Below are positions 5,151 through 50,400 of a stretch of DNA of 64,000 nucleotides, piece by piece. This DNA comes from Nymphaea colorata (Eukaryota; Streptophyta; Magnoliopsida; Nymphaeales; Nymphaeaceae), in assembly GCF_008831285.2 (NCBI RefSeq), contig NC_045138.2, positions 24,275,934-24,339,933 of the forward strand. The letters run 5' to 3'. The position numbers were made by a program, and so were the translations under genes. How positions within the stretch are numbered: position 1 is the first letter of the stretch; each line of letters opens with the position of its first letter. The notes beneath the pieces were generated by a model, which had not been told where the DNA came from, did not search any database, and saw only the letters and a program-made list of their open reading frames with translations.

Positions 5151-5153
5151 CAG

Positions 5154-5965
5154 AAGGATCAGTTTCAGGCAGCTGACAGTGAAACAACTTCATCTTCTGA
5201 TGAGGATGATTGTGACAGTGCATTAAAAGATCATGGTATTTTTTAGAGTGAGATGCAATCTCGTCTAACAAAGTTGCAGGTACACTGGTGAAAAAGTATT
5301 TGTTAGGGATTTAATCTTGATGTTTCTCTGATTAACTTTGTTTCAGCATTCTTGTAGTTGGTATCAGCGATCAATTTTCTCATGACTAATCAATGCAGTA
5401 TATTTATTAATTTACTTATTATTTCTTTGTTTCTTGGTAATTCTGTTGTAAGAATTTTAGTTGCCATATAAGGCTTCATAGTCTTGACGATCACTTGTTG
5501 AAGAGTATGCTTTCAAGTTTCTGTTGCTGTCCAGTGCTTTAAATCAAGGTTCCAGCATATTCCTCTAGGATGTCTCGTCACTACTTTTTCTTACATATTG
5601 CATTAGTGTTACTTTTCTACAACTTACAATAGTAATTATCTGTTCTGGCTCAATCCTTTTGGCATTTAATTATGAAGATATATTTGCATGCATCTGATCC
5701 TGGGGAAGCATTCTCTCAGGTTGTACGGCGCTTCTGGGATAGGAATGACATAAAAGGAGCAATCTTTACCATGGAGAAGATGTCTGATTACTCTGTAGGT
5801 ATTCTGCTCAAGCTACTATTATGTAGCTGCTAATGGATAGCTTTTTCTCGTGTTGGCTGGATTATGGTTGGACTTGCAGGTGCATGCAGATGTAATAAGT
5901 GTACTAATGGAGAAATTTGATGCAGTTACACTGGACATTTGCGCTTGCATGTTGGTCACGGTTTA
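5154..5965 (+). pseudogene. KTN80: Katanin p80 C-terminal (con80) fragment, broken
   Basis: Three exon-like blocks on the plus strand encode part of the con80 domain of katanin p80, which binds the p60 severing subunit. Block 1 (5154-5279) ends SEMQSRLTKLQ. Block 2 (5720-5794) reads VVRRFWDRNDIKGAI and continues to SDYS. Block 3 (5880 to about 5965) reads VHADVISVLMEKFDAVTLD. All have GT/AG borders, so this is genomic, not a processed copy. Block 1 carries an in-frame TAG at 5244-5246 where the family has an ordinary residue before the SRLTKLQ motif. The domain also stops short after block 3, with no remaining exons. The WD40 first exon lies inverted at 4.1 kb, so the gene appears rearranged as well as truncated. 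Confidence 0.72.
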
Positions 5966-6309
5966 AATTGTGGCGTAGCTGTGATTTACGATCATATTAA
6001 TCAACTATTCAACACATGATAACATTCTATATATACATGCATATTTATTAACTTCTCGGCATACACTCTCCATCATACCCAGGACAAAGAATAGTGCCCT
6101 GTACAAGAGTGACTTGAGTTTGGAGACAATCAAGGTAAGGTGATCCCATGTAGCAGCTTTACCAGCCTGGCCAGCCAGCTCGAATGGAGGGGTCGCGATA
6201 GACATGGGAAAAGGAAAAGTTCACACACAAAATTAGACATTTAATCTAAATAAAGAAGTTGTAAAACAAAGATATTGAAAAAGTAGGACATGAGCTAATT
6301 TTAGAGTAA

Positions 6310-6781
6310 GGGCCTGTTTGGTTGGAGGGAAAGGGAAGGAAAGGGAGGGATTGAGCAATCCCTCCTTTGTTTGGTTGGCTAACTAAAGACGAGGGAAAGG
6401 AAGGGAAAGGGGCAAAGTGTGTTTGGTTGGGAGGGGAGGGAAAGGGAAGGGAGGGAAAGGAAAGGATTGTGTAGTATAAATGCAATCCCTCCCAAATCGG
6501 ACGGATTGGGAAGGAAAGGAAAGGAAGAGAGGAACAAAGTGTTGACTGCCCACAATACCCCTTCCTTCACGTTCTTAATTTTTTAAACATTTTGACTGTT
6601 AAGGATATTATTGTAAAGTATTAACCTTTCCTTTCCTTTCCTTTCTTTTGTATCCAAACAAGCTTTTTAATCACTTCTTTCCTTTCCATTCCATTCCATT
6701 CCTTTCCCTTCCCTTTCTCTTCCCTTCCCTTTCCTTTCCCTCTCTTTCCATCCCTTCCTTTCCCTCCTACTAAACAGGCCC
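6310..6781. mobile_element. Tourist-like MITE (PIF/Harbinger type), 472 bp
   Basis: The element begins GGGCCTGTTTGGTTGGAGGG and ends with the inverted counterpart, CCTCCTACTAAACAGGCCC. It is flanked on both sides by TAA (6307-6309 and 6782-6784), the target duplication typical of PIF/Harbinger transposons. The interior is almost pure purine on the left half and pyrimidine on the right (GGAAAGG / CCTTTCC runs), so the two arms could fold into a long hairpin. The TIR-like GTTTGGTTGG motif recurs inside the left arm near 6370 and 6422, suggesting internal end duplication. No transposase is encoded. A related partial copy lies at 35041. Confidence 0.8.
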
Positions 6782-7242
6782 TAAGTTAAACCTTCCTTGC
6801 TTCTTTTCTTAAGCTTGGACAGTGCAAACAAAAAGGGCCCAAGAAACACAAGCCTTTGTCAAGTACGGATGTGCATTAGTTGCACTCTATTTCAAGGCAA
6901 ACCAAGATTATGAATATCTTCAATCTTGGGTGCGACCAAAACTTTTACAATTGAGATTAGCCCGCTTTTTATTTGAGAAACTTAGTGAAGTTGGTCGTTT
7001 ATTGAAGAGAATATGAAGACAATTAGATGAAAGCTTTTTATAACAAGCAAATTTGACATTTGTATACTGTGGATTCAATGGTAATGCAAAACTATATGTC
7101 GAATCGAAATTCAACTAATTACGAAATCCTTTTGCCAAAAAGAAAAAAAGTTAATTGTAACCAATCGAATTGGAAATAATTGAAGAAATGTCCGGATGTT
7201 ATAGACGTTCATACGGTGCATTGCTAACTCGTTCTCCACCAG

Positions 7243-29149: not shown

Positions 29150-31290
29150 GATGTGAATAGAGATGAAAGAAAGAGCGGCACCGTCACTCCGCCGCAGACG
29201 GACTATGGCGCCTTAGCCGAATGGTAAACTGGACATCCTCATGCACAAGACGAGCCACATAATCTGACGAAGAGAATGTGTCCCTGAAGACCCTGTTGTT
29301 GTGCTCCTCCCAAATGCGCCACCAAGCTGAAATGAGCCACGACCTCCAAACACGACCTCAGGAAGCAAATAGGTGTGGGGAAGGACAAAAGAGGAACAGA
29401 AGACGAATGGATGGTGGGTTTGGAAGACTACTAACAAGGGAAGATTAGGTAGAAGCTAGGACACTAAAGAAGAAATGACAAGAGGTAAAAAGGTGAACCC
29501 GATACTCAGCCGCGACAAGACAGAGGTGACACTGGTTAGTCAAACTGATGCCAAGGCACTGTAAGTGGTCAAAAGTGTTGATGTGGCCAGTAAGAAGAAG
29601 CCAGACGAAAGCAATAGCACGAGGAGATGGGTCAGGGAACCAAAGAGATCGAGGTAGGAGCGACGCAATTGAAGGACCAAAGGAGGCCAGGTAGCAAGAA
29701 GGAAGAGTGAACTCACAGGTAGGTGAGAGAGGCCAGGATGGGAATGTGGACGATGAGAGGTCAGCAAGGCGGAGGAAAAGAGGAAGCGCAGAAAGCATAT
29801 CTTTCAAAAAGTGAGAGGGAGAGGGTTGAGAGATGGAACAATTCTAAACACTAGGGGAAGGCAGGTTGAATTTGGAATAAATGAATTGGGTGATGGGAGA
29901 ATACTAAGTTGCCAGACGCCACCACCAAGAACACAGAGAAGACTCACATGCCCGACTAAGGTTGGTAACCTCAGCACCCCCAAGAAGACGCAGAAAGACA
30001 ACCGCATCCCAATGCGCAAGGCGATCCGAAGGCCGATTCTCATTTCAGATAAACTTACGAATAATCTTATCAAACAAACTTAGGACAGCTACAGGAGGCC
30101 GATAGACAGCCACAGCATGGAGAGAGACAGACGCAAGACAGTGCCTCGCAAGAGTAATACGGCCTGAAAGAGAAAGCAGTTTTCTCTGCCAACATTGAAG
30201 GCGATCAATAAGCTTCTGCTCCACTCTATTCCAAAAGGATGGTGCAGGAGGCGATAACGTAATCTGAAGCCCCAAGTTGTCCATGGGCAGGCCAGCAGCC
30301 TTACACTCAAAGCATGCTTCAGCGAGAAGTACCGTGGCCGGATCCGCATGAATGACGGAAATGTGACATTTAGCGGAATTGATAGAAAGACCCGAGATGA
30401 CCTCAAAAACCCGAAGGATGAGCCAAGTTCTCACAATCTCTTGGCGGGAAGCATTGCTGAACATGAAAAAGTCATCAGCATACTGAAGGGTGGAGAAGGT
30501 CTGTAGGTAGGGGAGCGAATGCAGCGTGAGGAAGCCAATGACTGTTGCCTGATGAAATAGAGCAGAAAAGCTCTCAGCGACCAAGTTGAAAAGCAAGGGC
30601 GATAACGGACAACCCTAACGGAGGCCACGCCCGAGACAGAAGAAATCGCCACACTTTTCATTGAAGGAGACCGCAAGTTAGGCCCTAGTGACAAGCGAAA
30701 GGATCCACTCTCTAAACTATGGACCAAAAGCAAGACGGGTGAGAAGGTCAGAAAGGAACTCCCAACTAATCGAGTCAAAGGCCTTAGATATGTCCAATTT
30801 AAGGATGAAGGAAAGAAGTCGTAGACAGTAAAGGGAGTGAACAACCTCATTAGCCAGGACAACAGCGTCCTCCAAATGCCGATCCTTGATGAAAGCAACC
30901 TGCAAAGGATTAATAATAGAAGGCATGACCGGCGCAAGCCGCAAAGAGAGCAGCTTAACAATAATCTTGTAAGGCGTGCTTAAAATGGAGATCGGGCGGA
31001 AGTGGGTGACGTCCGTAGGGTTATGGCGCTTAGGCACTAAGACACAGGTAGCTTGATTAAATTCCTTAAGGAATATGGAACTGGAGGCAAACTCATCACA
31101 AAAAGCAAACACATCAGCGCTACAAGCATCCCAAAAGGTACGAAAAAATTCGATAGGAAAACCATCGATGCTGGGTGCCTTACCAGAGCCAAGGGCCCAA
31201 ACAGCGTTCTTGATTTCTTCATGCACGAAGGGCCGCTCCAGAGAGTTTGCACACGAGACAAAGAGGAAGGAGAGGTGAAAATCCGGCAGC
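29150..31290 (-). mobile_element. Decayed LINE (non-LTR retrotransposon), 5'-truncated
   Basis: The minus strand encodes pieces of a plant L1-type ORF2 in several frames. The RT fingers/palm begin with IDGFPIEFFRTFW, then HFRPISILSTPYKII and QVAFIKDRHLEDAV. Motif A is LDISKAFDSISWEFL (ORF 31226-30717). The frame then breaks, and motif C with YADD lies in the ORF 30596-30045 (LQYADDFFMF, then GLSINSAKC and WQRKLLSLSGRI). A zinc-knuckle RVT-like end lies at about 29807-29445 (CHLCLVAAEYRVHLF). The endonuclease half is absent; the element stops upstream at a (GA)n tract near 31301-31346, consistent with 5' truncation. The low-coordinate end passes into a T-rich stretch near 29040-29160. Frameshifts and stops make it inactive. 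Confidence 0.85.
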
Positions 31291-31298
31291 GGGGCACC

Positions 31299-31300
<2 letters not shown>

Positions 31301-31346
<46 letters not shown>
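31301..31346. repeat. (GA)n microsatellite
   Basis: An uninterrupted GA dinucleotide run of about 45 bp at the truncated 5' end of the LINE. Confidence 0.95.
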
Positions 31347-31350
<4 letters not shown>

Positions 31351-31888
31351 GAATTAAACCCACTAAACTAAGCTCGAATGAAATCTTGATTCGAGCAACC
31401 ATTTGCCTTCAAAGAAGTATCGAGTATCGACAACAGTTACATTTGACTTGTCATTTGGCTTCGCTTGCAAAGCTTAAGCTCATGAGTCATGACGCGCTAC
31501 AAGTTCATACATAGAGTTGCTTTACAGTTCTATCGAACAGACATTTCATTTTCTTAAGAATAATTTCCAGCATGGTCTTTTGTCTAGGCTGAACAGCATC
31601 GAGGTAGCTTTAACCTTCAATCCTCGTGTTTTTCATGAGAAACTGGACCGCCGTCTCCTAGAAGTCGACTTCACATCTTCTTGTTCATGGCACCAAGCGA
31701 TAATCACTTTCGTATATGGTCTTATAAAACTCTTGGCTGCAGTTGCATGCTTTGAGTACTTGGCTCTGTCAACTAATGCCTTTAGACCAAAGGGCAAAGG
31801 CATGTTAGGAACGAGGCCTCCTGTAGCTGCATGCATTAATTCTCGGGACGTCCATATTCTGTGTGCAAGAATGGATGAACATGTTTAT

Positions 31889-34447
31889 TTACCAATAATC
31901 ACCACATGAACATGAACATGAACCCCCCTTAAAATGATGAAACCTGTGATTGTCCCTAAGGACTATATCTCTACCGGTAACTAAGGATATATATTTTATA
32001 GCAGAGTGACAATCGTTGCATACCCTAAGGTTCTGCATGACCCTGATCACAGTTCCAGGTGTCGAAGTCAGAAGGCCAAAGGTAATTGCCAGCTTCTCAC
32101 TGTGGTAAAACAACGAACGTTCCCTCTCCACGTCATCCCACTCAAACGATGCAGAAGTCATGTCTGGAACATATCCGACTTCTTTGATACGACTAATCAA
32201 GATATCGAGTTTCCTGTATATTTCACTGCAACATGGGTGTTTTTGATCCTCAACAACGAAAGAGTGCATTTCACCTCTTATCTCTATCCAACTAACACCG
32301 TGGTCTTTCTTGATTCCTCTTGTTTTCATCAAATCTCTTATGTCTTTAGCCTCGTCCATTCTACCGAGGGACGTATAGATGTTAGTCAGGAGCACGTAAG
32401 TGATTGCCTCATCTGGTTCCATCTCAATTAGTAATTTAGCAACTTTGCTTCCAAGCTCAATGTTTCCATGTTTCCGGCATGCACCCAGTAAAGCCAGCCA
32501 AACAGAAGGACCAGGCTCAAAAGGCATGTTAGATATAAATCTCTCTGCTTCATCTAATCGACCAGCTCTAGACAAAATATCAGCAACACATGCATAGTGC
32601 TGATAGTTTAAATCAATCCCATGGCTTTCTTTAACTGTATAGAAGAATTCATGACCTTCATCAACGAGGCCAGCATGGTTACAAGCTGAAAGAACTCCCA
32701 GTACTGTTATGCTGTCGGGTTCAAGTCCTTCAAATTGCATTGTTCTAAAGAGCAGAAAAGCTTCATTAGCGTCCCCATGCTGAGCAAGAGCAGATATCAT
32801 GGCATTGTAAGAAGCAACTGTAGGTTCTGATACTGATTTGAAGATTTTCCTCGCTTCTGTGATGCAACCACAATTTGAATACATGGTGAGAAGTGAATTG
32901 CTCACAGGCCCATCACAGAAGAAACCACTTCTGATGCCATGGCTGTGAATCTGCTTGCCAATCTCAAGTGATGATATCTTGGAACAACCTGAAAACACGG
33001 TCGAGTACATGAATTGGTTAGGTTTGATACCCAGTTCTAGGACTTGATGAAGAATCCTGAGGGCCTCTTGAACTTCACCATTCTGCACATTTGCTGCAAT
33101 CATCGAAGACCAAGAAGCTACATCCTTCAACTCAATGTCCTCAAAGGCATAACGAGCCTCTTCAAGGCTTTGATTTGCAGAATACATGGCAACTAGAGCT
33201 GTACCTACAAAAGGATCTCTTTGATACCCAGTCTTAATTATAAGACCATGAACTCCTGTATACTCTTTGAAGACATGATCACTAGTTGCACCAGAAAGTA
33301 CAGCAGGAAATGTGAAAATATCCAACACAAGCCCCTCGTATCGCATCATTTTAAAGAGCAAGAAAGCTTCTTCCACTTTATCCTGCAAACCATAACCTCT
33401 AATTAACGTATTCCAGATAATCACATTTTTCACATGCATGCTGTCAAACAATTTTCTTCCTTTTCTGAGATCCCCACATTTCACATACAAATCAAGAAGT
33501 GCACTTCTGATGACAATATCTGAAATAAATCCATGAACGATAACTTGGGCATGAACCTGATCCCCCACATCAATCTTTTCTAACCCCGTACAAGCCCGCA
33601 ATATGCTGCTGAAAGTGAACTCTGTGGCAGCCACACCATTCTCTTTCATTTTCATATACAAAGACGCACACTCGGAATAAAGTTCATGCTCTACTGATCT
33701 TGCCATTATGGAATTCCACGTTGTAGCACTCTTCTGAAGGCTACCATCGAAAACTCTGAAAGCATCGTCTATGGAAGCACAACTGGCATACAAATCAATC
33801 AGAGCATTAATAACAAACTCATCCTCTACATAACCAAACTTAATTGCAAGGGAATGTAACTGTTCTCCCTGCAATAAATCATGGTGGTCTTGGCAACCCT
33901 TAATGATGGACGAAAGCGTGTATTGATCAGGTTGATGTTCCTCCAGTAACATCCCTTTAAACAAAGCCAGGGCTTCATTCAGAGCCCCGCAACTGCAATA
34001 CCCAGAAATCATTGTGTTCCAAGCTATCAAGCTCTTAGGGGTAATATCATCAAACACTTTGCGTGCAAGTTGTAAATAGCCACATTTTATGTACATATTG
34101 AGGAGGCTTATGAGCACAAACCCATCCAATTTAAATCCACTTTTGATGATTTGAAGATGGACACGAACCCCACCTTCAAGAAATCTATTTCTAGTACAGG
34201 ACTGAAGAAGACACCCATATAAGAAGGAAGAGGAGGGCGCATTATTAGAATAGAAGAAAGAAAATACTTCTCCCAGATTGTTGCTCTCACACAATCTCCT
34301 TATTTCCTCATTAAATCTCCCGTTTTTGGTAGTCTCCTTTAGCTGTTTCTTTTTTGGTAGCCTAATCAGGGATGGGCCTCCTGAGAACAGATTGTTGGAG
34401 CATCGTAACGCCATTGAGTGAACGGTGAACCAAGCACCAAACGACAT
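31889..34447 (-). CDS. Pentatricopeptide repeat protein, PLS class with E/E+/DYW
   Basis: An intronless 852-residue RNA-binding protein expected in a chloroplast or mitochondrion, where DYW proteins carry out C-to-U RNA editing. After an N-terminal stretch of about 65 residues come PLS-type repeats (for example LISLLNMYIKCGYLQLARKV, DVASWSSMIAANVQNGEVQE, PTVASYNAMISALAQHGDAN). E/E+ motifs follow from about 640 (PSVWLALLGACRKHGNIELG). The DYW deaminase-like domain has HSEKLA at about 782-787, CNDCH from about 810, HHF at 837-839 and the terminal GDYW. The first Met is used; a second in-frame Met at residue 12 (34414) is equally possible. The zinc-binding tail reads SCSCSCGDYW, where the family normally has one CSC before GDYW, because a TGTTCA unit is repeated. 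Length and architecture are otherwise normal. The exact editing target cannot be read from sequence. Confidence 0.93.
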   Translation of the reverse strand: MSFGAWFTVHSMALRCSNNLFSGGPSLIRLPKKKQLKETTKNGRFNEEIRRLCESNNLGEVFSFFYSNNAPSSSFLYGCLLQSCTRNRFLEGGVRVHLQIIKSGFKLDGFVLISLLNMYIKCGYLQLARKVFDDITPKSLIAWNTMISGYCSCGALNEALALFKGMLLEEHQPDQYTLSSIIKGCQDHHDLLQGEQLHSLAIKFGYVEDEFVINALIDLYASCASIDDAFRVFDGSLQKSATTWNSIMARSVEHELYSECASLYMKMKENGVAATEFTFSSILRACTGLEKIDVGDQVHAQVIVHGFISDIVIRSALLDLYVKCGDLRKGRKLFDSMHVKNVIIWNTLIRGYGLQDKVEEAFLLFKMMRYEGLVLDIFTFPAVLSGATSDHVFKEYTGVHGLIIKTGYQRDPFVGTALVAMYSANQSLEEARYAFEDIELKDVASWSSMIAANVQNGEVQEALRILHQVLELGIKPNQFMYSTVFSGCSKISSLEIGKQIHSHGIRSGFFCDGPVSNSLLTMYSNCGCITEARKIFKSVSEPTVASYNAMISALAQHGDANEAFLLFRTMQFEGLEPDSITVLGVLSACNHAGLVDEGHEFFYTVKESHGIDLNYQHYACVADILSRAGRLDEAERFISNMPFEPGPSVWLALLGACRKHGNIELGSKVAKLLIEMEPDEAITYVLLTNIYTSLGRMDEAKDIRDLMKTRGIKKDHGVSWIEIRGEMHSFVVEDQKHPCCSEIYRKLDILISRIKEVGYVPDMTSASFEWDDVERERSLFYHSEKLAITFGLLTSTPGTVIRVMQNLRVCNDCHSAIKYISLVTGRDIVLRDNHRFHHFKGGSCSCSCGDYW

Positions 34448-34449
34448 AT

Positions 34450-35040
34450 CATGCCTAAAGCTGCACGGAGAACAATTCCGTCGAAGATTACAACATTCAT
34501 TGTAACTTTCTTCACGTAAATGTTGTTCTAGATGACATCCATTCGTGAAATCGATCGTCTGGCTGGTGCCAAAAAAATATAATTATCTTTTCGGGCCCAC
34601 GAGACGAGGGCTTTGTCTCTTCCATGCGATGAATTTGTGGTCATGGGACGAACGTCCTCATCCGACAAGGCAACAAATGGCGGTAAAATTTTAATACAAA
34701 AGAACGCGTGCATGGTGAAAGTTCAACCTTTTTTAAAATCTTGATATCCATTCTGTTTCTTCCTTCTTAGATAACAGATTTGCTATAAGTGTGCATGGTA
34801 AAGTCTAGATTTTCAAAAGAATGATGGGAAATCAGATCTTAATCGAGTTTGGTACAATAAAAAATATCAACCTCCAAATCAAATCAGAACCATTTAAATT
34901 TCATGAAGGAATGAACTGAATACAAAGTGAAGTCAATTTGGTAAAGCAGGTAGTGTCCAATTAGATATCGAATTTTTGGCTTGGCATGCCAAGCTCAATA
35001 ACTCGCCTTTTGGCCTTGACAAACAGAACTTCGCCACTAA
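34450..35040. other. PPR gene upstream region, no other gene
   Basis: About 600 bp between the PPR start and a MITE-like fragment. No coding exon or clear TATA box is visible. Confidence 0.4.
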
Positions 35041-35300
35041 CCCCCTGTTTGGTTGGAGGGAAAGGGAGGGAAAGGAAGGGACGGAAAGGAAGGGAAAGGA
35101 AAGGGAAGGGAAGAGGAAAGGAAGGGAAAAAAATGGAATGGAAAGGAAAGGAAAGAGGTGATTAAAAAACTTGTTTGGATAGAAATGAAAGAAAAGGAAA
35201 GAAAAGACTAAAATCTTCTTTCGTTTTTCTTTTAAACGTGGGTCCTCATGGGTATTATGGGCAAAAAAAACTTTTCATGTTCTCCATGTTCTCCAAATCA
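35041..35300. mobile_element. Partial Tourist-like MITE, relative of the 6.3-kb copy
   Basis: It begins CCCCCTGTTTGGTTGGAGGG directly after TAA (35038-35040), the same target preference as the 6310-6781 copy. It then shows the GGAAAGG-rich arm, GATTAAAAAACTTGTTTGGA, and a GGGTATTATGGGC phrase, each matching the reverse complement of the 6.3-kb element in order. The far end and second TIR are not found, so it is truncated or diverged. Confidence 0.65.
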
Positions 35301-35769
35301 CTCACCGGCTAGAATGTAAACTTCAATAAAAATTGGTTTCAAGTTTCCACGAGCAAATTATAATATTGCACTAACAATTGGCTCTGGGATATCATGTCGC
35401 CTTTTGGAAAAGAAAAATAAAGCAGAGGAATTCAGTATCCAAATTAATTGAATTTGTTCATTACAGTCTGCAATCTCATTTCGCATTACGTCTTTGCTAT
35501 ATAATGTCAATGCAGTTCAAAGCTCATTCGTTAGCAGGTAAGCTTCCACATGCTTGACACGTTTTCTGCAGTGAAGTGCTCTCAACACGAATTGTTTCAT
35601 ACACTCCACTCTGAATCTCATTAAGAACTGCCAAGTGTGTACATTCCACGCTACGGCGTCAAGTTTTTTTCTGGTGAACTCGGAATGAAGTTACTCATAA
35701 AGATGCAAACCTCTGCTATAAAAGCTGTTTCTTTTATTCATAGTGTTACATCACGATTCACGACAAGTT

Positions 35770-37659
35770 TCAAAGATGAATACTTACGTCCGTGATGGGA
35801 TAGACAAGGAAAAGATAAAAAGAGCACACTTGAGAAGACAAGCATTGCGTCCATGATGAATACTTACGTCCTGCACCATTGCCAAGCATTGTCGCGCAGT
35901 CTAAGGTAGAAGTGTACGCCAGGAAGCTGTGAGCAACAGCTTCACTTTCCGGTTTAAACTTGCAGAATTTGCATTTTGGTGAAAGGAGGGAAGGCGTCCT
36001 GTATTTGTCCTCGCCCCCCATGATTGGCATGGCCACTCCTTTCTTCACGGGGCTTTGGAACTCCGGTTGGTAGGGTTGCCCAATGACACCTTTCACTTGC
36101 TGTGAAAGGCCGTAGAACCTGAACTGAACTTCAAGATGAGCAAAGCAATCATTGGACGGAATCCGGTATTTGTGAATCCGATCATCTTCCTCAGTTACAG
36201 GCACTACATTTACAGAAACCTCTGCAATTTCCGGCAACTTTACTATAATGCTGTTGGTCCGAGCAGCTCTCTCCAATTTCAAGTCATGATCAGGTGAGCT
36301 CCACTCTGAGAGATGGCCTTCAGAGAGAAATACAGACTGCCCATCATAGAAAAACTGAAGCTGGTCAATGCTGTTGTCCCATTTCACGACCTTCTTCGCT
36401 CCAAGAGTAAATGTATGGGGGCCGTACATGAATCCTAGTGCTTGAATCCATGTGAAGTCCCTTCTTCTCCCCTGTGGCCTGAGGCCGATTCGTGCATTGA
36501 TCTGGAAGTTGGTGTCGGAAACAAGGCTGAAATGTTCATTTGCCCTGCCATGGAAGAAGAAGACAACTCCATCTCCTCCTACAAAGCGTGGATCATAGCA
36601 AGCGGCTCCGGTTCCATGGCAGTCGGCTTTCCGGTCTGTTATGAGCAGAGGTTTGTATTTAGCGTTAGGATCTAGATGTATTTAAATTTTAATCAGCAAA
36701 AAAAGTTAGTGGTCATGGAAAAAGGAACGAACGAAACCATGAAAATAGGAGGGAAAACTACAAATATATATAAAAAGGGATAGACAAACCTACTTGCAGG
36801 AAGTAACCAACAAAAAATCTCTTGTTAAAACAATATTATTGACGCAATTTATTTGGTTTTTAAGAGCCAACACCGTCCCTTTCTATTTCATTGATTTTCT
36901 CCCCAACCAGGACACTGGCACTTGCACGATGATTGTAATATCAAATTATTAATAGAATGCATGACGCCGTGGCTCATGGCTGTATCCTGTATGGCCTTCG
37001 CTTACAGACGTTCGAACTAGCTTATGAAAAATAACAATGATATTTCTCGTCCTTAATTAATTAAGCTTGACTGCTAAGCACAATCTTTTCATAAACTTCT
37101 ACTCATTTTTAAACGAAAAGATCATGTCCATGAATTCTGAGCTAATCATTTCTTGCCATATTGAAAAGTAAATATCATCCAGCAATGTATGTTGATTAAG
37201 CCTGATAAGATGCGGCAGCAAAATCATACTAATCTAATAGTTGTTGACTAGATCTACGCAAAATACCATCAAGGCATTTCATAGTTAGTTCACACATGAA
37301 AGCAACAGCATTTTTAGCTGAAAATCTCAGAGGATGAACAATCTTCTGTACAACTAACCCCGTGGATGTTTGAAAACATTGGAAAAAACTTTCACGTTTT
37401 TCTAATGTACGGAAATGATTCTGTAAGCCCAAGCCAAAAGGTTCAGTTCGTCGACTTTTAATTTCTATCCAAATATATCACGATCCCTTTCGTTCCTAAT
37501 CTTGTCAAGTATGGACATCACATCCTTGCTGTCATGCAAATGACACTATACATTGGCAGATATCTGCACAGTGTGAAAGCAGGTAATCCCTTAACAGCAT
37601 TCCTTCTGTATGCCAGTTCGAACTGGCCCTATTTTGAGGCTTAGTAAACTAAAATTTGC

Positions 37660-37702
<43 letters not shown>

Positions 37703-37983
37703 TGAGTGAGTGAGTGTGTGTGAGAGAGAGAGATGCTCACTTCTGCACACAGCTTCACATTTTGGTGAATTGCAATCCAAGTAGCAAGATTTGGCCTTGG
37801 GATCTGCTGGTTTGGTCAGCGGGCACTCGCCGGACACCTTATGGTTCTCAAGAAGCACCTGCTTCTCCTACTCCAGCAAGTGAGATGCTGCCGCACAGCA
37901 TAATAAGCGGCATTCCCCAACTCTGCTGCCACCAACAACAAGAGAAGCAGCATCTGTAGCCGCGCTGGAGATGAAGCTCTCAT
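35770..37983 (-). pseudogene. Root-cap/LEA-related gene, left copy, frameshifted
   Basis: Inverted paralogue of the intact gene at 40684-42718, with the same two-exon layout. Exon 1 (37983-37741) starts MRASSPARLQMLLLLL with a signal peptide. It lacks one base near 37830 compared with the paralogue (243 versus 244 bp), so the frame after CFLRTIRCPAS ends at a TGA instead of continuing ECPLTKPADPKAK. Exon 2 starts at 36635 after a normal AG and runs in frame from RKADCHGTGAACYDPRF through the root-cap domain. It lacks one Phe codon (INARIGLRP instead of INARFIGLRP). The C-terminal stop of the paralogue is gone: after LGNGAG the frame runs about 30 more codons to 35770, through a partial copy of downstream sequence. 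The TATA box is TGTATAA rather than TATATAA. Most likely a pseudogene. An internal start at the exon 1 Met (37858) could give a protein without signal peptide. Confidence 0.85.
37662..37735. repeat. (TG)n and (TGAG)n microsatellite in the left-copy intron
   Basis: About 36 bp of TG repeats, then GAGT repeats and a GA run, beginning a few bases inside the intron from the exon 1 donor. The paralogue has a CT run at the same place. Confidence 0.95.
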
Positions 37984-38459
37984 GGTGGACACCTCTCTCT
38001 GTCTCTCTTGTCTGCTACCAACTTAGAGCTCAAAACCCTCTCACCATGGATCCCTCTTTCTCCCTACAACTCCATTATACATCAAGGAGAATGTTTGGTA
38101 TCTCACCTCTGTCTGCCTGCAAATCAATCACATAAACCACAGCTGTCATAAACCCTGCCTAATTTTTCTGCTGTCTGCATACGCCTATGTCTTCTTTGCT
38201 TTATGTAACTTTTTGAAGGTACATGGGTTCTGAACTAAACTATAAGTCAACTTCTTCTTTCATCTTCTTCTTTTTTCTGGGACTGGGTTTGAATTCTGAG
38301 GAAATAAGATCGTTCCAATTGATAAATAATTCGTAAATTTTGTTATATTTCTAGCACAGATGACACTGCTTGGTGCCAATGAAACTATCCGTAAGCCAAG
38401 CATATTGGTATTTGCAATTTCAAATCATCTTTACAAATCATCCATATATGAAGAGTTAG

Positions 38460-40220
38460 GTCCGAGAGAGCTGTATTCCGATTTTATATGGATAACCAAT
38501 GACATTCTTGGCACTGCACGCTCTTGAGACTGGCACAAATTATTTGTTCTAAATAGCCATTTAAACAGATAATCGCATTCGGAATTATAAATTTCTTGGT
38601 ATCCTAAAATGTACAAACTGTTCAAATCATGCTCCAATTTGCTGAAATGATAAAGAAGAAAAAGTTTTATTAAAAATCTCAAGCATCGAATTGAACGAGT
38701 ACACTCCATAATCAATCAACCTAGTGCCAACAAAGAGCAGTGAAGAACGTATATACTATCTACAGTAGAATATTCATATTTTCAAACACATGAACTAGAT
38801 TGAGACCTAATCATGATTATGGTTGTAAATCTTGCCTAGAAAGCATGTTCATTTGCATAAAATCATAAAATGGGACCTCGGGCCAGTCCATTACGAGACA
38901 GATTGGATTCAAGTCGATTCATACTGGAGTTTGTTTTCATTCGAGCCGGAATGCACATTGCCCGTATTAGGGGCTGCCATTAATTCATGAACAAGTCAAA
39001 GATGGAGCCTAATTTACAGAAGATGTTTCGTTTCGACTGCATGCTGACAAATCGAGCCTGTGTTGCCCGGCGAGGTCTGGCAGTATGTGCTGTAGAACCA
39101 AACTTTGACGTTTTCCGGAACATTTTCCCAAGCAAAAAAACAAATCTTTAGGACCAGAATACCTGTGATGCATCATGGCATAGGAAAAGTAAGGCAGTGT
39201 GGCCGCAAAGTGCCTCTTGGGGTTTACCTTAGAGGCAGGCTTCTGCCCTCCCATTTTGAATTCAACGACTATATTTTTTTCAAGGGTTGGGTTCATGATC
39301 GGTGAACCACTTTTTTAATTTTTAAAGAGCAGAGTAACTGCTTACTTTTTCTAACCCCTAATCTCGTATTTGAATTTATGATCACGAAGATCTATTCCTT
39401 TCAATCTCGGATTCCAAACCATTTTGTTTTGCTGGTCTGATAGACATTAGAACCTATTGGCTTGTAATACCTAGCTCTTTTCTCTTCTCCAAAAATTAAG
39501 CATGAGAGCTGGGCCGGGCCACCAGTGGGTACCCAGTACCTGGCCCGACACAATAACGGGTCAGGCTTGGGTAGCGAACGCGACCTGTCGGGTGCCCAGT
39601 CGACCGCTTGTGCAAATGGGCTGGGCCTCGAACAAACTTGTAATGGCCCAGTACCCGGCCTAGCCCATTTGTAGATGGGCTGGGTAGCAGGCCGGTCTGG
39701 CATTGGGCCGGACCAATACTTGTGTTAAATTACTAGGCCACCTGGCCTGATGCTTAGGCCTATTTAAAATTATTAAATATCTTTAAATATTTAATCAATT
39801 GAAAAAAAAAAAACTTCACTTTAAGATATGCTGCAGCCAATACAGACCGACATGGTTTTCTAGTACTTGGTTAGCAAGCAATCAATGTGGTGCTTTTATT
39901 CAAAAGTAGCGATCTTCCTGGTTTAATTTGTTTGAGACCCATCTTCACTGTGAGATATATTGGAGTGACCTCCCAAAAGCGATGGTGGTTTCTTTTTTTT
40001 TCTTTTCTGTATTCTTTTATAAGTTGTTTTTTCGTAAATTTTTTAGAAGTCCTCATTGATTCAAAAAGGTTTTATATTTTAGTATAGCAACATATTTATG
40101 ATTGCAGATGCAATTATCTATTTGAAACACTACCTAGAAATGATAAATACAGTGTGCAAGTCCCAAGAATGTCTTAGGTTATGCATATAAAATTTGAAGA
40201 TGGTCTCCCTTTGACGCAGA
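38460..40220. other. Spacer between the inverted root-cap copies
   Basis: The unique centre of the inverted duplication. No gene is seen. At 39490-39740 there is a GC-rich dispersed-repeat-like block full of GGGCCGGGC / CCCAGTACC phrases. On either side lie the two arms, whose upstream sequences are recognisably the same. Confidence 0.5.
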
Positions 40221-40586
40221 TCTGCTCATATTGGATGACTTGTAAAGATGATTTCAAATTGTAAATACCAATATCTGTGGCTTGCGCATGGTTTATCTGG
40301 CAATGAGCAGTGTTAAGCTAGTCAGTACGACATCTATGAATTATTTACCAATTGGAAGAAAACCTGCTTCTCACCATTCAAAACCGATTTCTGGAAAGAA
40401 AAGGAAAGAAGAAGTTGACTTTGGTTTAGTTCAGAACCCACGCAGATTAAAAAAAAGAAAGTGCAGAGAGCAAAGAAGACTTGGGAGTATGAAAACAGCA
40501 GAATGATTAGGCAGGGCAGGCAGCTGCTTTTCATCATGTGATTGGTTTCCAGGCAGTCAAAGGTGTGAACCAAACATTCTCTTTGC

Positions 40587-40593
40587 TATATAA
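40587..40593 (+). promoter_or_regulatory. TATA box of the intact root-cap gene
   Basis: TATATAA about 95 bp before the start codon, in a block (CAAACATTCTCTTTGC before it) conserved with the left copy. There the same position (38081-38075, minus) reads TGTATAA. Confidence 0.6.
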
Positions 40594-40683
40594 TGGAGTG
40601 TTGGGAGACACAGGGATCTATGGTGAGAGGTTTTTGAGCTCTAAGTTGGTAGCAGAAAAGGGAGACAGAGGGAGGTATTCATT

Positions 40684-40935
40684 ATGAGAGCTTCTTCTCC
40701 AATGCTGCCGCTGCTGCTGCTTTTCTTGTTGTCGGTGGCAGCAGAGTTGGGAAGTGCCACTTATTATACGGGCCGGCAGAAGCTCACCTGCTGGAGCAGG
40801 AGAAGCAGATGCTTCTTGAGAACCATAAGGTGTCCGGCAGAGTGCCCGCTGACCAAACCATCAGATCCCAAGGCCAAAGCTTGCTACTTGGATTGCAATT
40901 CACCAAAATGTGAAGCTATGTGCAGAAGTGAGCAT

Positions 40936-40977
<42 letters not shown>

Positions 40978-42718
40978 ACACACACTTAATACAGATTCCT
41001 GTGCCTCAACGAGTCGAAATAGATCCATTTCCGACTGGTTTACAGAAGGAATGCTGTTGACGGATCAGCGGCTTTTACGCTGTCAAGATATCTGACAGTA
41101 CAAGTATCTAGCGTCATTTGCAGTACTGCAAGGATGTGATCTCCATGCTAGGAGAACGAAAGAGATCGTGATTTTAGATGCATAGGAATGAAAAATTAAC
41201 GAACTGAGCCTTTGGGTTTGGACTTACACAATCCTTTCTGTACGTTAGAAAAACATGCATCATTTTCCCGAGGTTTTCAAACTTCCACGGGTGTAGTCGT
41301 AAAAGAAACTGTTCACCTCTAATATGTTCAGCTAAGGTCACCGTTGCTTTTATATGTGAACTGTGACATGCTTTTATGGTATTCCGCGTAGATCTGGGCA
41401 ACAAATGTTTGATTAGTAGTATGGTGTAACTGCCGCATGTTATTGAACTTAATCGACTTAATTGCAGGATGTCATTTAACTTTTAAAATGGCAATAAATG
41501 ATCACCTCCGAATTCATGGACACGAATTTTTCTTTTAAGATCCAGTAGCGGTTTACGAACAGAATGTACTAATCGGCAGTCAAGCTTAATTAGTTAAATA
41601 GTAGTAAATAAATCATATTAAAATTTAGCAAGGTTATTTTTCCTTTAAAACTCGAATGTCTGCAAGTGAAGGCCACGCTGTCATCCATCCTATTGATAAT
41701 TTAATATTACAGTAATTATGCGTGTTCTCTATAACAAGATTTTAAGAGTATTTTATACATTGGTTACTTCCTGCAAATAATAGGTTTGTCTATCCCTTTT
41801 TATATGTATTTGTAAGCTTTCCTCCTGGTTTCCTGGTTCTGTTCGTTCTTTTTTACATTACTGCTAATTTGTTGCCAATTAAAATACGTATAGATCCTAA
41901 CGCTAGTTGTAAAACTGCTGCTCATAACAGATCGGAAAGCTGACTGCCATGGAACCGGAGCCGCCTGCTATGATCCACGATTTGTAGGAGGAGATGGAGT
42001 CGTCTTCTTCTTCCATGGCAAGGCAAATGAACATTTCAGCCTTGTTTCTGACACCAACCTCCAGATCAATGCTCGGTTCATCGGTCTAAGGCCACAGGGG
42101 AGAACAAGGGACTTCACATGGATTCAAGCACTAGGATTCATGTACGGTTCCCATACCTTCAGTCTTGGAGCAAAGAAGGCCATGAAATGGGACAACAGCA
42201 TTGACCAGCTTGAGTTTTTCTATGATGGGCAGCCCATATTTCTATCTGAAGGCCACCTCTCAGAGTGGAGCTCTCCTGATCATGACTTGAAATTGGAGAG
42301 AACTGCTCGGACCAACAGCATTATAGTAAAGTTGCCGGAAATTGCAGAGGTTTCTGTAAATGTAGTGCCTGTAACTAAGGAAGATGACCGGATTCACAAA
42401 TACCAGATTCCTGCCGATGACTGCTTTGCTCATCTTGAAGTTCAGTTCAGATTCTACGGCCTTTCACCGCAAGTGGAAGGTGTCATTGGCAAGACCTACC
42501 AACCGGACTTCCAAAGCCCAGTGAAGAAAGGAGTAGCCATGCCAATCATGGGGGGTGAGGACAAATACAGGACGCCTTCCCTCCTTTCACCAAACTGCAA
42601 ATTCTGCAAGTTTAAACCCGAAACCAAAGATGTAGACCACGCCTTCATGGCCTACCCTTCTACCATAGACTGCGCAACAAAGCTTGGCAATGGTGCGGGA
42701 ATGGTTTGCCGAAAATGA
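40684..42718 (+). CDS. Root-cap / LEA-related secreted protein
   Basis: Member of the plant root-cap family (Pfam Root_cap; relatives of At5g60530). These proteins are associated with root cap and extracellular matrix; their biochemical role is not established. Two exons: 40684-40927 and 41931-42718, with an AAT codon split A|AT, giving 343 residues. A signal peptide is clear (MRASSPMLPLLLLFLLSVAA). Then come a Cys-rich segment (ECPLTKPSDPKAKACYLDCN, then CRNRKADC) and the conserved ACYDPRFVGGDGVVFFFHGK. Next are NEHFSLVSDTNLQINARFIG, then RTRDFTWIQALG, and the PIMGGEDKYRTPSLLSPNC motif near the end. Paired Cys spacing suits an oxidised, secreted protein. The 1-kb intron opens with a CT microsatellite. 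The protein ends shortly after LGNGAG. The paralogue in inverted orientation 2.7 kb upstream is broken, so this is the functional copy. Confidence 0.92.
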
Positions 42719-42869
42719 AGCACCTCTCACAGAAATCAAACAGCGAACCATAAGTTCGTCTTCTCAAGTGTGCTACTTTATCTTTAATTTTTCATGTCAA
42801 TCCCATCGCGGACATAAGTATTCATCTGTGAAACTTGTTCGTGATACAATATTCTGAATAAAAGGAACA

Positions 42870-43920
42870 GCTTTTATAGCAGAAATTTGTCTTTGTGAGT
42901 TGCTTCATTCCAACTTGAGCAGAAAAAACTTGACGCCGTGTTCTTCTACCAACTTAATAAGAAATCTAGAGATGACGCGACAGCGTCAATTCTGTGAGAC
43001 ATGGCCATCCTGAAGGAGCTCAACTGGAATACGCACTATAATGACGAGTTGTACTGCGCGCAGCTAAAGATGGTAGATACAGTAGCGAGCAGATACCGTG
43101 GGGGCAAGAAAATAGACTAGTTTGTGCACCAATATTACGTCCGTGAATCCGAAACTGCTGTTAGCCATGAAATCGTCTTTTTATTCATGTGACTAGTAGA
43201 TGCTGATTGAGTTAAGTCGGAGATATGATCTTAACGTTGAAAATAATCCTCCTTCGCTGCTCGTTAAAGATTTTTTCAGCCCCATCTCTACCAAGCCTTT
43301 GCATAGTTCTTCCGTTCAATCAGATTGACACGACCTTGAGTTTCGCCACAAAACGTGTGGTCCGGCCCTTGCACATGGGCAGTTGACTTGCAAATTCGAT
43401 TGGTTCAGATGGCAGGTGCTAGATGAGCCCCACATTCACGACGTTCATCATTTAAAAGAGCGCTTATGCCCTTTTGCAGACAAGAAGAAAACTCTGCTTT
43501 ATCTTTTACTCTTTATATATGCAGTACAGCATGCCCTTTCATCGTCATCTGCCTCCCACTCTTCTACCCCACACTCACATGGGTATGAGCGGAGACTTCG
43601 TACCTTATTCACCTACCATCTGCACATGCTGAAACCACCATCCACAGCTGTATATTGAACTTCTGTACAAGCAGAAGCCATGAAGACAAGGAATGCCCAT
43701 TCTGGAATTGGGATTCTATGTCATAAGGCACGACTAAAAGGACGCTAGGGACACCATTCTTACGTAATTTTTCATTGAGAATCGGATAACAACAGGACAC
43801 GACACAGGACTAACATGTAGCATCCTCGTGGCATAGGTAGGAAGTAACGCCTGTCAGATAAGTGTGAGATGCTGAAAGTACCAAAAAATCTTACGGTTCA
43901 TTTACTGTCGTCCCATTCAA
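42870..43920. other. Intergenic stretch, no gene recognised
   Basis: Short ORFs only. Nothing matches a known family on either strand. Confidence 0.4.
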
Positions 43921-44859: not shown

Positions 44860-47421
44860 TCATCTTCCTTTTGGATTGACCAACTGTGAAAATACAGCAC
44901 TGGTGGTTGCGTCTTCCAAATCATCATCAGTAACAGAGCGTGCTTCATCGACCATACTTGTACTGTTGTCAAATTGCTGGAATTGCGATATTGGAATGTC
45001 AGCAATATGATTCGTGCTGTTATCATCAGGATCGACAAGGGCTGATGTCTCCTGAAGCTGAAGTGCATACTCGAGGTTCCACAGCACATCTCCGATCGTC
45101 GGCCTATCAACTCCATGCTCAGCCAGACACTTCTCGGCTGTCTCACCAAATTTCTTTAGGGATGCTGGATTAACTCTGCCAATTAGACCAGGATCCATAA
45201 TCTGGTCAAGCATTCCCTTCTTCTGCCACATCATTGCCCACTCTGCTATATTCACTTGCTCTCTGGGGAGAACCGGATTCAGTGCCGGTCTTGAGCACAA
45301 AACTTCCATTAGAACAACACCAAATGAGTAAACATCTGACTTTTCCGTCAGCTGCTGCCTCCTGAAGTACTCGGGATCGAGGTAACCAAAGCTACCTTTA
45401 ACAGCAGTACTTACATGAGTTTGGTCCAATGCAGGGCCGGTCTTGGAAAGGCCGAAATCTGCAACCTTGGCCACAAAATTCTCATCCAACAGGATATTGG
45501 TGGTCTTCACATCTCTGTGAATTATACTCTGCGTCGCCCCCGTGTGAAGATAATGCAGACCTCTAGCAGCACCAATGCAAATCTCAAGTCTCTGCTTCCA
45601 CAAAAGCGGTGGAAGGTCTGACCCATAGAGGTGACTTCTAAGAGGCCCATTGGCCATATATTCATAAACCAAGATCATCTCTGAGCGCTCATCGCAGTAG
45701 CCAATTAAGGAAACCAAATGACGATGTCGGAGCTTGGACAACATCTGTATTTCAGTCTGAAATTCGTTAAGACCTTGCTCAGATCTTGGATTCCCTCTTT
45801 TGACAGCAACCCTGGTTCCATCATCCAGCGTTCCCTTGTAAACTTTGCCAAAGCCGCCCACACCAAGAAGCAGAGCTTCATCAAATTTGTTGGTTGCATC
45901 CATTATCTCTTGGAAGGTGAAGAGGCGTCCCAAGCTCGAGTTCGCCAACGAGATGCAGCTTGCAGTTCCGCTCTTCTGAGAAGTAGTCGAAACTTTGCTT
46001 ATGGTGTGAGAATGGCCGTACAATTGCAAAGGCAACCATGGATGAGCACGGCGTCGGCTCTTTGATCTCGGCCCAACGAAGCAGCAGTAATACACAGCTA
46101 GCAGTAGTACCGATGCCAAGCCACCCACTATCACACCAAGAACGACAATTGTCGTCTTCTTTTTCTTCGATTCTGAAGCAGAGTAAATCTTTCTCACTGA
46201 AAGCAGGCCATCCAAGCTCCCGGCGTCATTGCTGAGCTTCAAGACTTCCAATCCATTGAGGGTGGCGTTCTTTATATCCTCGATGGTTGGATCGGGGCCA
46301 ATGCTCACGTTTATGAGAGCAGAGCTAAAGGACACATTGGTAACAAAATCTATATAAAAGGGCCTCATCAACTCATTGGTCTTTTTGCTGGGATCAACAT
46401 TTACCATAAAATTAGAACCAGATGTGACGTAGGCGTTGAAGATTAGCTGATTCAGAGCTGTACTAATGATGTCGCAGAAGTGAAGTCTGATGAAATATAG
46501 GAAGTTTGGATCGACTGGCAGGGACCATGTAATATTGTATATGACATTTGCAACGTTCGAGTTCGCCATTGCTTCAGCATAAGCATAGACTGAATTCGGC
46601 GCAATCTCTCGGGTGAGAGTGCCATAGTTAATGGAGCTTGGATCAACAAACACAGGATTGGCAGAGTTATTGGAGAAAAGATAGGCCCTATCATTCTCCC
46701 AAGTTCTTCCTAATGTGTCATTGATAGAGGTGATTCTAGGACCCCCAACATTAAGCCTATAGACGGTTTCCATGGCCAAGTTGGTAAGACTGAAAAGGAT
46801 CCCGTCAGGCACCTGCGAAGGCGGATCACTGATCAGATCGTCGGGGACAGAGACCACCTCAATCGCGTTCACGAACGAGAGCGAACCGTTCGTGGGCACA
46901 AAGACAATGGTCAAGTGATCAGAGGTCACATTGATCAAATACTCCTTAAACAGAAAGGGATGGCTCTGGTTCTTCAGGGTGTAATTGTCCAAAAGCACAA
47001 AATCTTCAGTAACTACTGTAAGAGAAGTGGAATTCAGAGAATACGCTGAACTCGGGACAGGGAAGAAGTAGAGCCGAACCCAATGCCGGCCTCCCTGACT
47101 GATACCGAACCGGTAAGAGCTCGGCTTTGAGAAGACGCGAGCAGTTTGGTAAATGGGGGAGGGAGCCGCAGAATTGGAGGAAGAAACCACACTGGTCCCT
47201 TGGTCTGTGATCAGAAGAGAAGGCGCATGCGCGTCCGGGACGAAGGTCCTCCCGTCCACAGTCACATTTTGGGAAGCCCCACATGCAATCAAGTAATTAT
47301 CCGCCGGTGTAAAGGCAGCGTCTGAAACAATACTGGTGAAATCATCCAAGAACACAACAAGAACGAGAGAAACAACAGATACCCACTTCACGAAACCCAT
47401 CATAGTCATCCTCAGAGCCAC
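44860..47421 (-). CDS. THE1: THESEUS1-type malectin-like receptor kinase (CrRLK1L)
   Basis: An intronless 853-residue plasma-membrane receptor kinase that monitors cell-wall integrity and responds to RALF peptides. A signal peptide covers residues 1 to about 35 (hydrophobic SVVSLVLVVFL). The extracellular part carries two malectin-like domains (about 38-195 and 210-400) with many N-glycosylation sites. A single membrane helix lies at about 424-448 (TIVVLGVIVGGLASVLLLAV). The kinase domain from about 510 has the glycine loop LGVGGFGKVYKG (519-530) and catalytic Lys541 in VAVKRGNPRSEQG. It also has the HRD motif at 635-637 (HRDVKTTN), DFG at 655-657 and activation segment DQTHVSTAVKGSFGYLDPEY. 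The juxtamembrane PWLPLQLYGHS and the C-terminal TDDDLEDATTSAVFSQLV are THE1 signatures. Length is almost that of Arabidopsis THE1 (855). Starts at 5-8 residues in are possible but would shorten the leader only slightly. Confidence 0.96.
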   Translation of the reverse strand: MALRMTMMGFVKWVSVVSLVLVVFLDDFTSIVSDAAFTPADNYLIACGASQNVTVDGRTFVPDAHAPSLLITDQGTSVVSSSNSAAPSPIYQTARVFSKPSSYRFGISQGGRHWVRLYFFPVPSSAYSLNSTSLTVVTEDFVLLDNYTLKNQSHPFLFKEYLINVTSDHLTIVFVPTNGSLSFVNAIEVVSVPDDLISDPPSQVPDGILFSLTNLAMETVYRLNVGGPRITSINDTLGRTWENDRAYLFSNNSANPVFVDPSSINYGTLTREIAPNSVYAYAEAMANSNVANVIYNITWSLPVDPNFLYFIRLHFCDIISTALNQLIFNAYVTSGSNFMVNVDPSKKTNELMRPFYIDFVTNVSFSSALINVSIGPDPTIEDIKNATLNGLEVLKLSNDAGSLDGLLSVRKIYSASESKKKKTTIVVLGVIVGGLASVLLLAVYYCCFVGPRSKSRRRAHPWLPLQLYGHSHTISKVSTTSQKSGTASCISLANSSLGRLFTFQEIMDATNKFDEALLLGVGGFGKVYKGTLDDGTRVAVKRGNPRSEQGLNEFQTEIQMLSKLRHRHLVSLIGYCDERSEMILVYEYMANGPLRSHLYGSDLPPLLWKQRLEICIGAARGLHYLHTGATQSIIHRDVKTTNILLDENFVAKVADFGLSKTGPALDQTHVSTAVKGSFGYLDPEYFRRQQLTEKSDVYSFGVVLMEVLCSRPALNPVLPREQVNIAEWAMMWQKKGMLDQIMDPGLIGRVNPASLKKFGETAEKCLAEHGVDRPTIGDVLWNLEYALQLQETSALVDPDDNSTNHIADIPISQFQQFDNSTSMVDEARSVTDDDLEDATTSAVFSQLVNPKGR

Positions 47422-50400
47422 ACAATCTGCAGGTAAACAGGTGCACCAAATCTAACCCAAGACAAAGCTGTTGCTCAGAGACATACCCACTCAAACCCCA
47501 AAAGGAAGAAACACAAAACCAAGAATAGTATCAAAAGGAACAGATGGCTAGATGGGTGCCCCTGTTTTGGCTTGCTTTGGACATGTACCTTGAAAGGGGT
47601 GGCTCCCTAGTTTGGTGGTGAAGAAACTTGGAGAAGGAATTAAATGGCTGTCTGAAAGCATCAGATGAGATGATGGAGCGGCATGGAAATTGAGAAGCGC
47701 AGCCATCAAGCGTTTCTCCTCACACTTGAGGAAACAGCTGCCTCCAGCCTGTGAAGTAAAGGAAACGTGGGACCCGCAAGTAGGAAACAGGTTCCAACGA
47801 AGTCCACTGCAACGGTGCTGGAGGAAAAAAGAAAATGGTTATTTGCAAAATTCTGCTCCGTGAATTCCGTAATTCAAAGTTGTGTCAAAATTGTTCGGTA
47901 ATTCAAACATTCGCGACTTCTTTTCTCTTTATTGACGGAAAAAGTTTGCCTGCTGCTGTCCACTCTTCGGTTGATTCTCTTTCTGCTTGATTCCAAATCG
48001 ATGATTTTAAACTCTTCTTACTGGAACATGAAAGAGACCATTAAATGGCCGAAAGCAGCATGTTTAATAGCTTTAACTTTTCATGTCAGTTCAAATTTAT
48101 GTGTTCACTGTGAAAGTCAGGCTTTGCTTTATGTAGAGAGAAAAGGAAAACGAAGATTGGTGAATGAAGTTAAAACAAGTGGAAGAACCATATTTAAATG
48201 CATTGAAAATGGTATAGGTTCTGTATTTAATGAGAACGATACAGAAAAAAACAGTTGATTAGTTACTAGAATATTAATGTTAGAGCAACGCCAATTCCTT
48301 TTTAATTTCCCTCTTCAACTATCAAATAAAGCGTGCAATTTATAATTATGAAATCAAGTAAAATTCTTTGCAAGCAAGTGAATGGTAGGCATAAAAAAAT
48401 AAAGAATTGGTTATGAGCAGGTGAATCTTGTTCAATGCAGCACAATTTTCTATTCTTTTTGCCAGATGTTTTGCTATGAGATAATCTTTTTTGGTATGTA
48501 AAATTATTCAAATACTTTCGGCAGATATTCTGAATATGGAATAATTATTTGTTGAATAGTTTGCAGGACGAGGTTGTGACAAATATAAAAAGAAACCGCT
48601 GCGCAATCGTCGCCGCCGGACGTCCGGGGACGCGGTTTTGGCCGCTGGGCCGTCCCTTTTCCCACTTGATGACTGACGGCGTTTACCGTGATGCGACCAG
48701 AAGTGAGATCTGGATACGAGCCTGGTCTCGTGTATATGCTTCACTATATTGATCCTGAATTATCTGGATCTCAGGTCTGTTGTAACTCACACCAGGATTC
48801 AGTTTTAAATGCGTTTTAACAATTGATATTAATGCTAAGGCAACAGATCCAGAACCACAGCCCAGGAACGGGTACAGGACCCAGATCCAAAATCCAACGC
48901 ACCTTTCGGAAAGTTGACGGGGATCCAAACCCATTCCTCCGCAGCCTCCGGAGGTCACGCTACTCTATCACGCCGCGAATGCCGGGGAACGACGGTTCCT
49001 GAGTTGTCCAAGGACACCGGTCCGTCGATCAGTTCGATCCCACCGGCGCCGGAGCTTCTGCTTAGCTTATGATGGGAACCCTCGGATCCGGTCCCTCCGA
49101 TGATCTCTTGGGATTCTTGTGTCCCATCCTGTCCACCTTCTGTCCTAGAACGCAAATGATCGGATTTGTCTGGTTGCTCTGGTGATTATAATGCGTGGAG
49201 ATAGCTTTGGATCCAGGCCAGGTATCATAAATACAAGCCCAATCATAACTTTGTCCCGTTTTGGATCCTAATGGAACCCAGTCGGGACTCAAAAAAGTCA
49301 AAACCAACTCCACAATCACTCCAAACCCGATTAAATTGTGGTTCGGATCTAATCCAAATTTGATCCATTGACATCCCTACCAATTCATAGGAAATGGTAA
49401 CCCATGATATCCGATCTTAATCAGGCACATGGTCTTCTCGGTTAACGAGAGATCAACTTAGATAAAGGCCTTCTTTACTTTAATTTTTCATAAAATTGTA
49501 AGAATTTGAAAGACTCAGCAGGATTCAAGTATTATTTTATAGCTATCAGATGTTTGATCTTATATAAAATGTTGCCTAAATTGTCGCTTATATGGCATAA
49601 TCAATTGACAAAGTTGCAGAACCGTTTATTCCCCAAGTAGCTTAATGAATGTGAAGCTGTGCTGAGAATAAAGGCATGCTTAGATAACACTCTTAAAAAC
49701 CTAGTTTTGCCTCCAAAACCGTGTTTAGCAAAAATATTGGTTTAGTAAAAAGTGTGAAAAACCAAATATGATCTCTAATTATCGTCACTAATTGTCCTAT
49801 GCTTCTAAGTCGGGTGCAATCGAATGTTTCACTTAACTACGAGATTAGCTACTAATTGCTTAACAATTTGATATGGGCCATATAATTGTGTCGGACCTGT
49901 TATTTCCCTCAGTTCATGTCCGAATGGGCTTAGGAGGCTCTAAGTACGTGTTATACCCAATGTCTCTTCTAACCAAATTAATGCAAGTCATTTTCATAAG
50001 GAATGTCTTTCAAACAATGTTTCGGGGGGGGGGGACTAGTAGCCGTTAGTCTCTATTTTAAATCTTTATAAGTTTATTGGCATGCAAGTTAAAGCATTTA
50101 CACTTCAAAGCACCAAAAACAGGCTTTGTACCCTATAAAAATAAGGGGTTGAATGAAGGCTATAGCCTTGATAGGTCTCTTTTACTTCTACTCGCTCAGA
50201 AAGAAAAATCATATGTATGAAAGAATTTCAATATGAAATCCCACCAGGACCATTTAGCCGTGGCCCGAGACTTTAGACAAAAATTTGACTTTGAAAAATT
50301 AATTTGTGTTTGGCAGGAACAAGGAGTTTGTCAGCAAAAGTGGAACCATTTTTAAGAAATCCAAAAACCAAAAGGCCCTTTTTTAAATTTATAACGAAAA

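Follow-up and report, generated by a model that had tools for sequence, protein, structure and literature searches.

The inverted Root_cap pair

The window, that is, the whole 64,000-nucleotide stretch of Nymphaea colorata DNA under analysis, contains two Root_cap genes that lie head to head in the arms of an inverted repeat and share an identical intron position (Table 1). The repeat is far beyond chance, with segments of 951 bp at 89% identity and 1.5 kb at 77% identity (blastn, E = 0), and together with the common intron position this bears out the original prediction of a head-to-head inverted duplication of a Root_cap gene. The arms are 77–91% identical, their outer ends are sharp, and their non-coding DNA is mostly ~20–28% divergent. 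No other close match to the repeat was found anywhere in the assembly (408 Mb, 783 contigs). Inverted arms do exist where they had been predicted (35.75–38.46 and 40.22–42.87 kb), but the core limits in Table 1 replace those values. Furthermore, when the inner flanks are aligned with a sensitive method, the arms extend to ~38872 and ~39817 (score 89; best of 100 shuffles, 47), which shortens the spacer from the proposed 1.8 kb to ~0.95 kb; no arm-to-arm alignment rose above shuffles in the outer flanks and deeper spacer. Apart from a ~55-bp fragment near 39495–39549, the spacer occurs once in the genome, and the outer flanks have nothing in common, so that transposon capture was rejected as an origin.

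Table 1. Coordinates of the Root_cap locus and its neighbours in the window, and of further inverted Root_cap pairs in the assembly
Feature	Position	Strand	Remarks
DYW-PPR gene, left neighbour	31892–34582	-	downstream of left copy, co-oriented with it
Left arm of inverted repeat	35653–38872	-	core 35653–38522 (blastn); inner extension by sensitive alignment
Left copy, exon 2	35770–36635	-	open frame; 3-bp in-frame deletion; last codons replaced; frame extends to 35770
17-bp patch GGACGTAAGTATTCATC in replaced left 3′ coding end	35855–35871	-	exact copy of 3′ UTR 35775–35791
Left copy, exon 1	37741–37983	-	1-bp deletion adjoining 37829
Spacer between extended arms	38873–39816	.	~945 bp
Right arm of inverted repeat	39817–42939	+	core 40151–42939 (blastn); inner extension by sensitive alignment
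Right copy, exon 1, coding part	40684–40927	+	intact; hydrophobic signal-like N-terminus; GT donor at 40928
Right copy, exon 2, coding part	41931–42718	+	Root_cap domain and stop
Malectin-like receptor kinase, right neighbour	44863–47451	-	convergent on right arm, >2 kb off
Root_cap inverted pair	C11:400/403 kb		head to head
Root_cap inverted pair	C1:13.728/13.733 Mb		tail to tail
Root_cap inverted pair	C1:13.50/13.72 Mb		
Root_cap inverted pair	C1:509/582 kb		

The right copy, spliced by GT–AG, encodes 343 aa in a frame that is open throughout, in agreement with the expectation that it is intact. Its Root_cap (PF06830) domain scores 96.5 bits against a curated cut-off of 27, and its product is probably a secreted protein, as judged by the hydrophobic N-terminus. 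The left copy runs on the minus strand from 37983 down to 35770 with an intron matching that of the right copy, and its Root_cap domain still scores 91.2 bits against the same cut-off. It retains the start codon, the splice sites and the polyadenylation signal (AATAAA), and the open frame of exon 2 spans 303 codons from stop to stop, so the anticipated retention of splice sites and most of the coding sequence holds. The AATAAA, the splice sites and a TATA-like box are present in both copies, with the box weaker in the left one, and the 100 bp containing this box and the leader start are 11% divergent, compared with 22–28% farther upstream. Both copies also have an identical five-codon upstream frame, MVRGF (window 40630–40647 and 38030–38047).

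Lesions of the left copy

Several independent lesions had been foreseen in the left copy; lesions are indeed present, and their number is three. The 1-bp deletion in exon 1 leads to a TGA at 37818–37816, which is 75 nt short of the exon junction. Ahead of the last codons nothing else breaks the frame, although this one missing base could be an error of the long-read assembly. The 3-bp in-frame deletion in exon 2 removes Phe131, which is invariant in 10/10 paralogs. At the 3′ end, a replacement has taken out the final five codons together with the stop and some of the 3′ UTR, and with them Cys341 (invariant in 11/11 paralogs); the GGACGTAAGTATTCATC patch within it exactly matches a stretch of the left copy's own 3′ UTR, 80 bp away, and end joining with templated filler would give a replacement of this kind. 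No nonsense substitutions were found in the left copy. L125, P183, K231, D244 and T270 are likewise altered only in the left copy.

Intron and flanking DNA were duplicated along with the gene and the disabling lesions are confined to the left copy, with an open parent in the right copy, as in a duplicated (unprocessed) pseudogene. The duplicated plant pseudogenes that lie beside their parent (PMC2708354) are alike in being local, in having kept the intron and in having an intact parent with lesions in one copy, and the left copy does not differ from them in kind.

Divergence and probable timing of the loss

The left/right pair has a Ks of 0.217 (0.15–0.29), a Ka of 0.064 and a Ka/Ks of 0.29 (bootstrap 0.18–0.45). 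The exons are 8–10% divergent and the intron, over the larger part that aligns well, ~24%. The pair Ks is similar to the distances in the well-aligned intron and the 3′ UTR (0.22–0.29), so gene conversion is not needed behind the exon similarity and was set aside. Whole-genome duplication was also rejected as the origin, the pair Ks being far under the peak of 0.9 reported for Nymphaea colorata (PMC7015852).

Among columns invariant in 10–16 paralogs, the left copy alone is altered at seven and the right copy alone at one (sign test ~0.035, one-sided; 5 to 1 counting substitutions only), a polarity that rests on few invariant sites, as the other paralogs are only ~45% identical and no close outgroup is available. 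In simulations of death at birth, a Ka/Ks as low as that of the pair arose with P 0.003–0.043 and zero nonsense mutations with P 0.015–0.028, while simulations with the left copy constrained for ~25–75% of the time fit well, a range that depends on the ratio assumed for the working copy. Because the pair Ka/Ks is low, the simulations argue against death at birth and the damage at invariant sites is skewed to the left, we infer that the left copy is the decayed one and that its decay came late, even though relaxed constraint would leave a copy looking much like one that died recently. The coexistence of left-skewed damage with a pair Ka/Ks that is still low is as expected of a recent loss.

Other Root_cap pairs in the genome

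At least four further inverted Root_cap pairs could be found in the assembly (Table 1). The intact head-to-head pair on C11 has a Ks of 0.238 and a Ka/Ks of 0.085, and the intact tail-to-tail pair on C1 a Ks of 0.264 and a Ka/Ks of 0.236. In the former (C11:398000–406500, positions 1620–2979 and 4581–6002) the exons are open and 92–94% identical; in the latter (C1:13727000–13735500, positions 1523–2531 and 5968–6921) they are open and ~88% identical. These intact pairs of similar age serve as internal controls within the same genome and suggest that a head-to-head arrangement is not in itself enough to condemn a copy. Inverted copying is recurrent in the Root_cap family here, and therefore the head-to-head orientation of the pair needs no special explanation.

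Another Root_cap copy, near position 2620 of C1:507500–512500, has an apparent frameshift near residue 117, and its inverted partner ~73 kb off is open; the C1:509/582 kb pair is likely a second case of one-sided decay. A direct tandem array of Root_cap exons lies at C11:391000–400200 with a period of ~1.2 kb, some of its units containing in-frame stops.

Origin and fate of the pair

It is reasonable to suggest, with a probability of about 0.8, that the left copy is an ordinary, recently pseudogenized inverted duplicate and that the right copy carries on. A local inverted duplication would have copied a Root_cap-family gene with its 3′ UTR and upstream DNA (~0.5 kb by the core arms, 0.9 kb if the extension is included) to form a divergent pair, and for much of the period that followed both copies would have been retained by purifying selection. 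Later, the left copy would have lost function through the frameshift, the loss of a conserved residue and a repair event at the 3′ end. A spliced transcript with a stop 75 nt before an exon junction is a likely target of nonsense-mediated decay, and the mRNA of the left copy, if its promoter works, would probably be degraded in this way. No regulatory role of the left copy is required by the sequence, and we infer an absence of function. Duplicated genes commonly end with the loss of one copy, and the pair offers a clean example of late one-copy loss in an inverted gene pair, its significance being otherwise small.

Alternatively, the left copy might still make a protein, if the assembly is wrong about the 1-bp deletion or the deletion is a rare allele, and if the altered C-terminus is tolerated. 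The frame is otherwise unbroken before the last codons, the open exon 2 and the retained start, splice sites and AATAAA are compatible with this view, and the pair Ka/Ks resembles that of one of the intact pairs. Nevertheless, the loss of both Phe131 and Cys341, together with the five further changes that are found in the left copy only, makes a protein-making left copy unlikely.

Proposed small RNAs from the arms

The original prediction also held that RNA transcribed through both arms could form a long hairpin, or that antisense RNA of one arm could pair with the other, so that siRNAs might regulate the right copy, which we regard as very improbable. Since ~40% of the right-copy exon bases lie in 21-mers exactly common to the left copy, with runs up to 74 nt, siRNAs could, if made, act on the right copy. 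There are also precedents: the head-to-head VIM4–VIM2 pair makes siRNAs in Arabidopsis Cvi (PMC13213937), the Arabidopsis inverted repeat IR1074, with 86% identity, is methylated (PMC3203196), and rice pseudogenes close to their parents can produce siRNAs (PMC2708354). However, each gene's own promoter sends transcription outward, away from the spacer, and because of this head-to-head arrangement the two mRNAs would be same-sense and unable to pair. A hairpin would require outside transcription across ~7 kb, for which the gene orientations offer no candidate on the left side; the receptor kinase on the right faces the right arm, yet a read-through of more than 9 kb would be required. Furthermore, the left exons lack an excess of CG-to-TG/CA loss, a rough proxy for methylation (4 to 7 in exon 2), and in the second head-to-head Root_cap pair, which is about as old, both copies are still intact. 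With divergent promoters and no both-arm promoter found, hairpin or sense/antisense pairing, and with it a small-RNA role for the left copy, appears to lack support and to be disfavoured, without being disproved.

The type of inverted repeat that produces siRNAs (PAI, GmIRCHS, VIM) has long inverted arms, as has the Root_cap pair. PAI1–PAI4 of Arabidopsis (PMC3203196) and GmIRCHS of soybean (PMC13051633) are likewise inverted duplicates with non-functional or pseudogene copies, but their arrangement is tail to tail and a foreign promoter upstream drives transcription through them, a heterologous one in the former and that of a DnaJ gene in the latter, whereas the Root_cap genes lie head to head and no such promoter was found. 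Like the Root_cap genes, VIM4 and VIM2 are two paralogs that form a head-to-head inverted repeat; in Cvi, the centre is reduced to 50 bp by a 2.7–2.8-kb deletion and siRNAs arise by read-through, whereas the Col-0 reference keeps the intergenic gap; the small RNAs are reportedly Cvi-specific (PMC13213937). The spacer of the Root_cap pair (~0.95–1.6 kb) and the divergence of its arms, one copy of which is broken, are far larger than in the Cvi pair. If small RNAs did arise from the arms, the locus would be another natural siRNA-making head-to-head pair like VIM4–VIM2. That the decayed left copy has been kept as a source of small RNAs through rare read-through, tuning the intact right copy, is highly improbable. 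The tail-to-tail pair at C1:13.728/13.733 Mb would be a better small-RNA locus, as convergent read-through there would yield pairing RNAs.

The left intron has somewhat more CG-to-TG/CA change than the right one (13 to 4; window 37053–36635 vs 40991–41930). A methylation footprint in the intron was not counted as evidence, since the exons lack an excess of CG loss and the polarity is not fixed.

An artefact of assembly, to which inverted repeats are prone, is barely credible here with flanks that are unique and different and a Ks of 0.22, and a falsely duplicated haplotype is unlikely because the window is free of N and the arms are ~20–28% apart in most of their non-coding DNA.

Other elements in the window

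No known RNA families were found in 34.5–44.5 kb. A 142-bp inverted repeat (window 35065–35206 and 6626–6767) with 90% identity has the look of a dispersed element, and part of it is a GA-rich minisatellite. At 29448–31400, the minus strand carries what is left of a non-LTR-type retrotransposon (RVT_1, zf-RVT).
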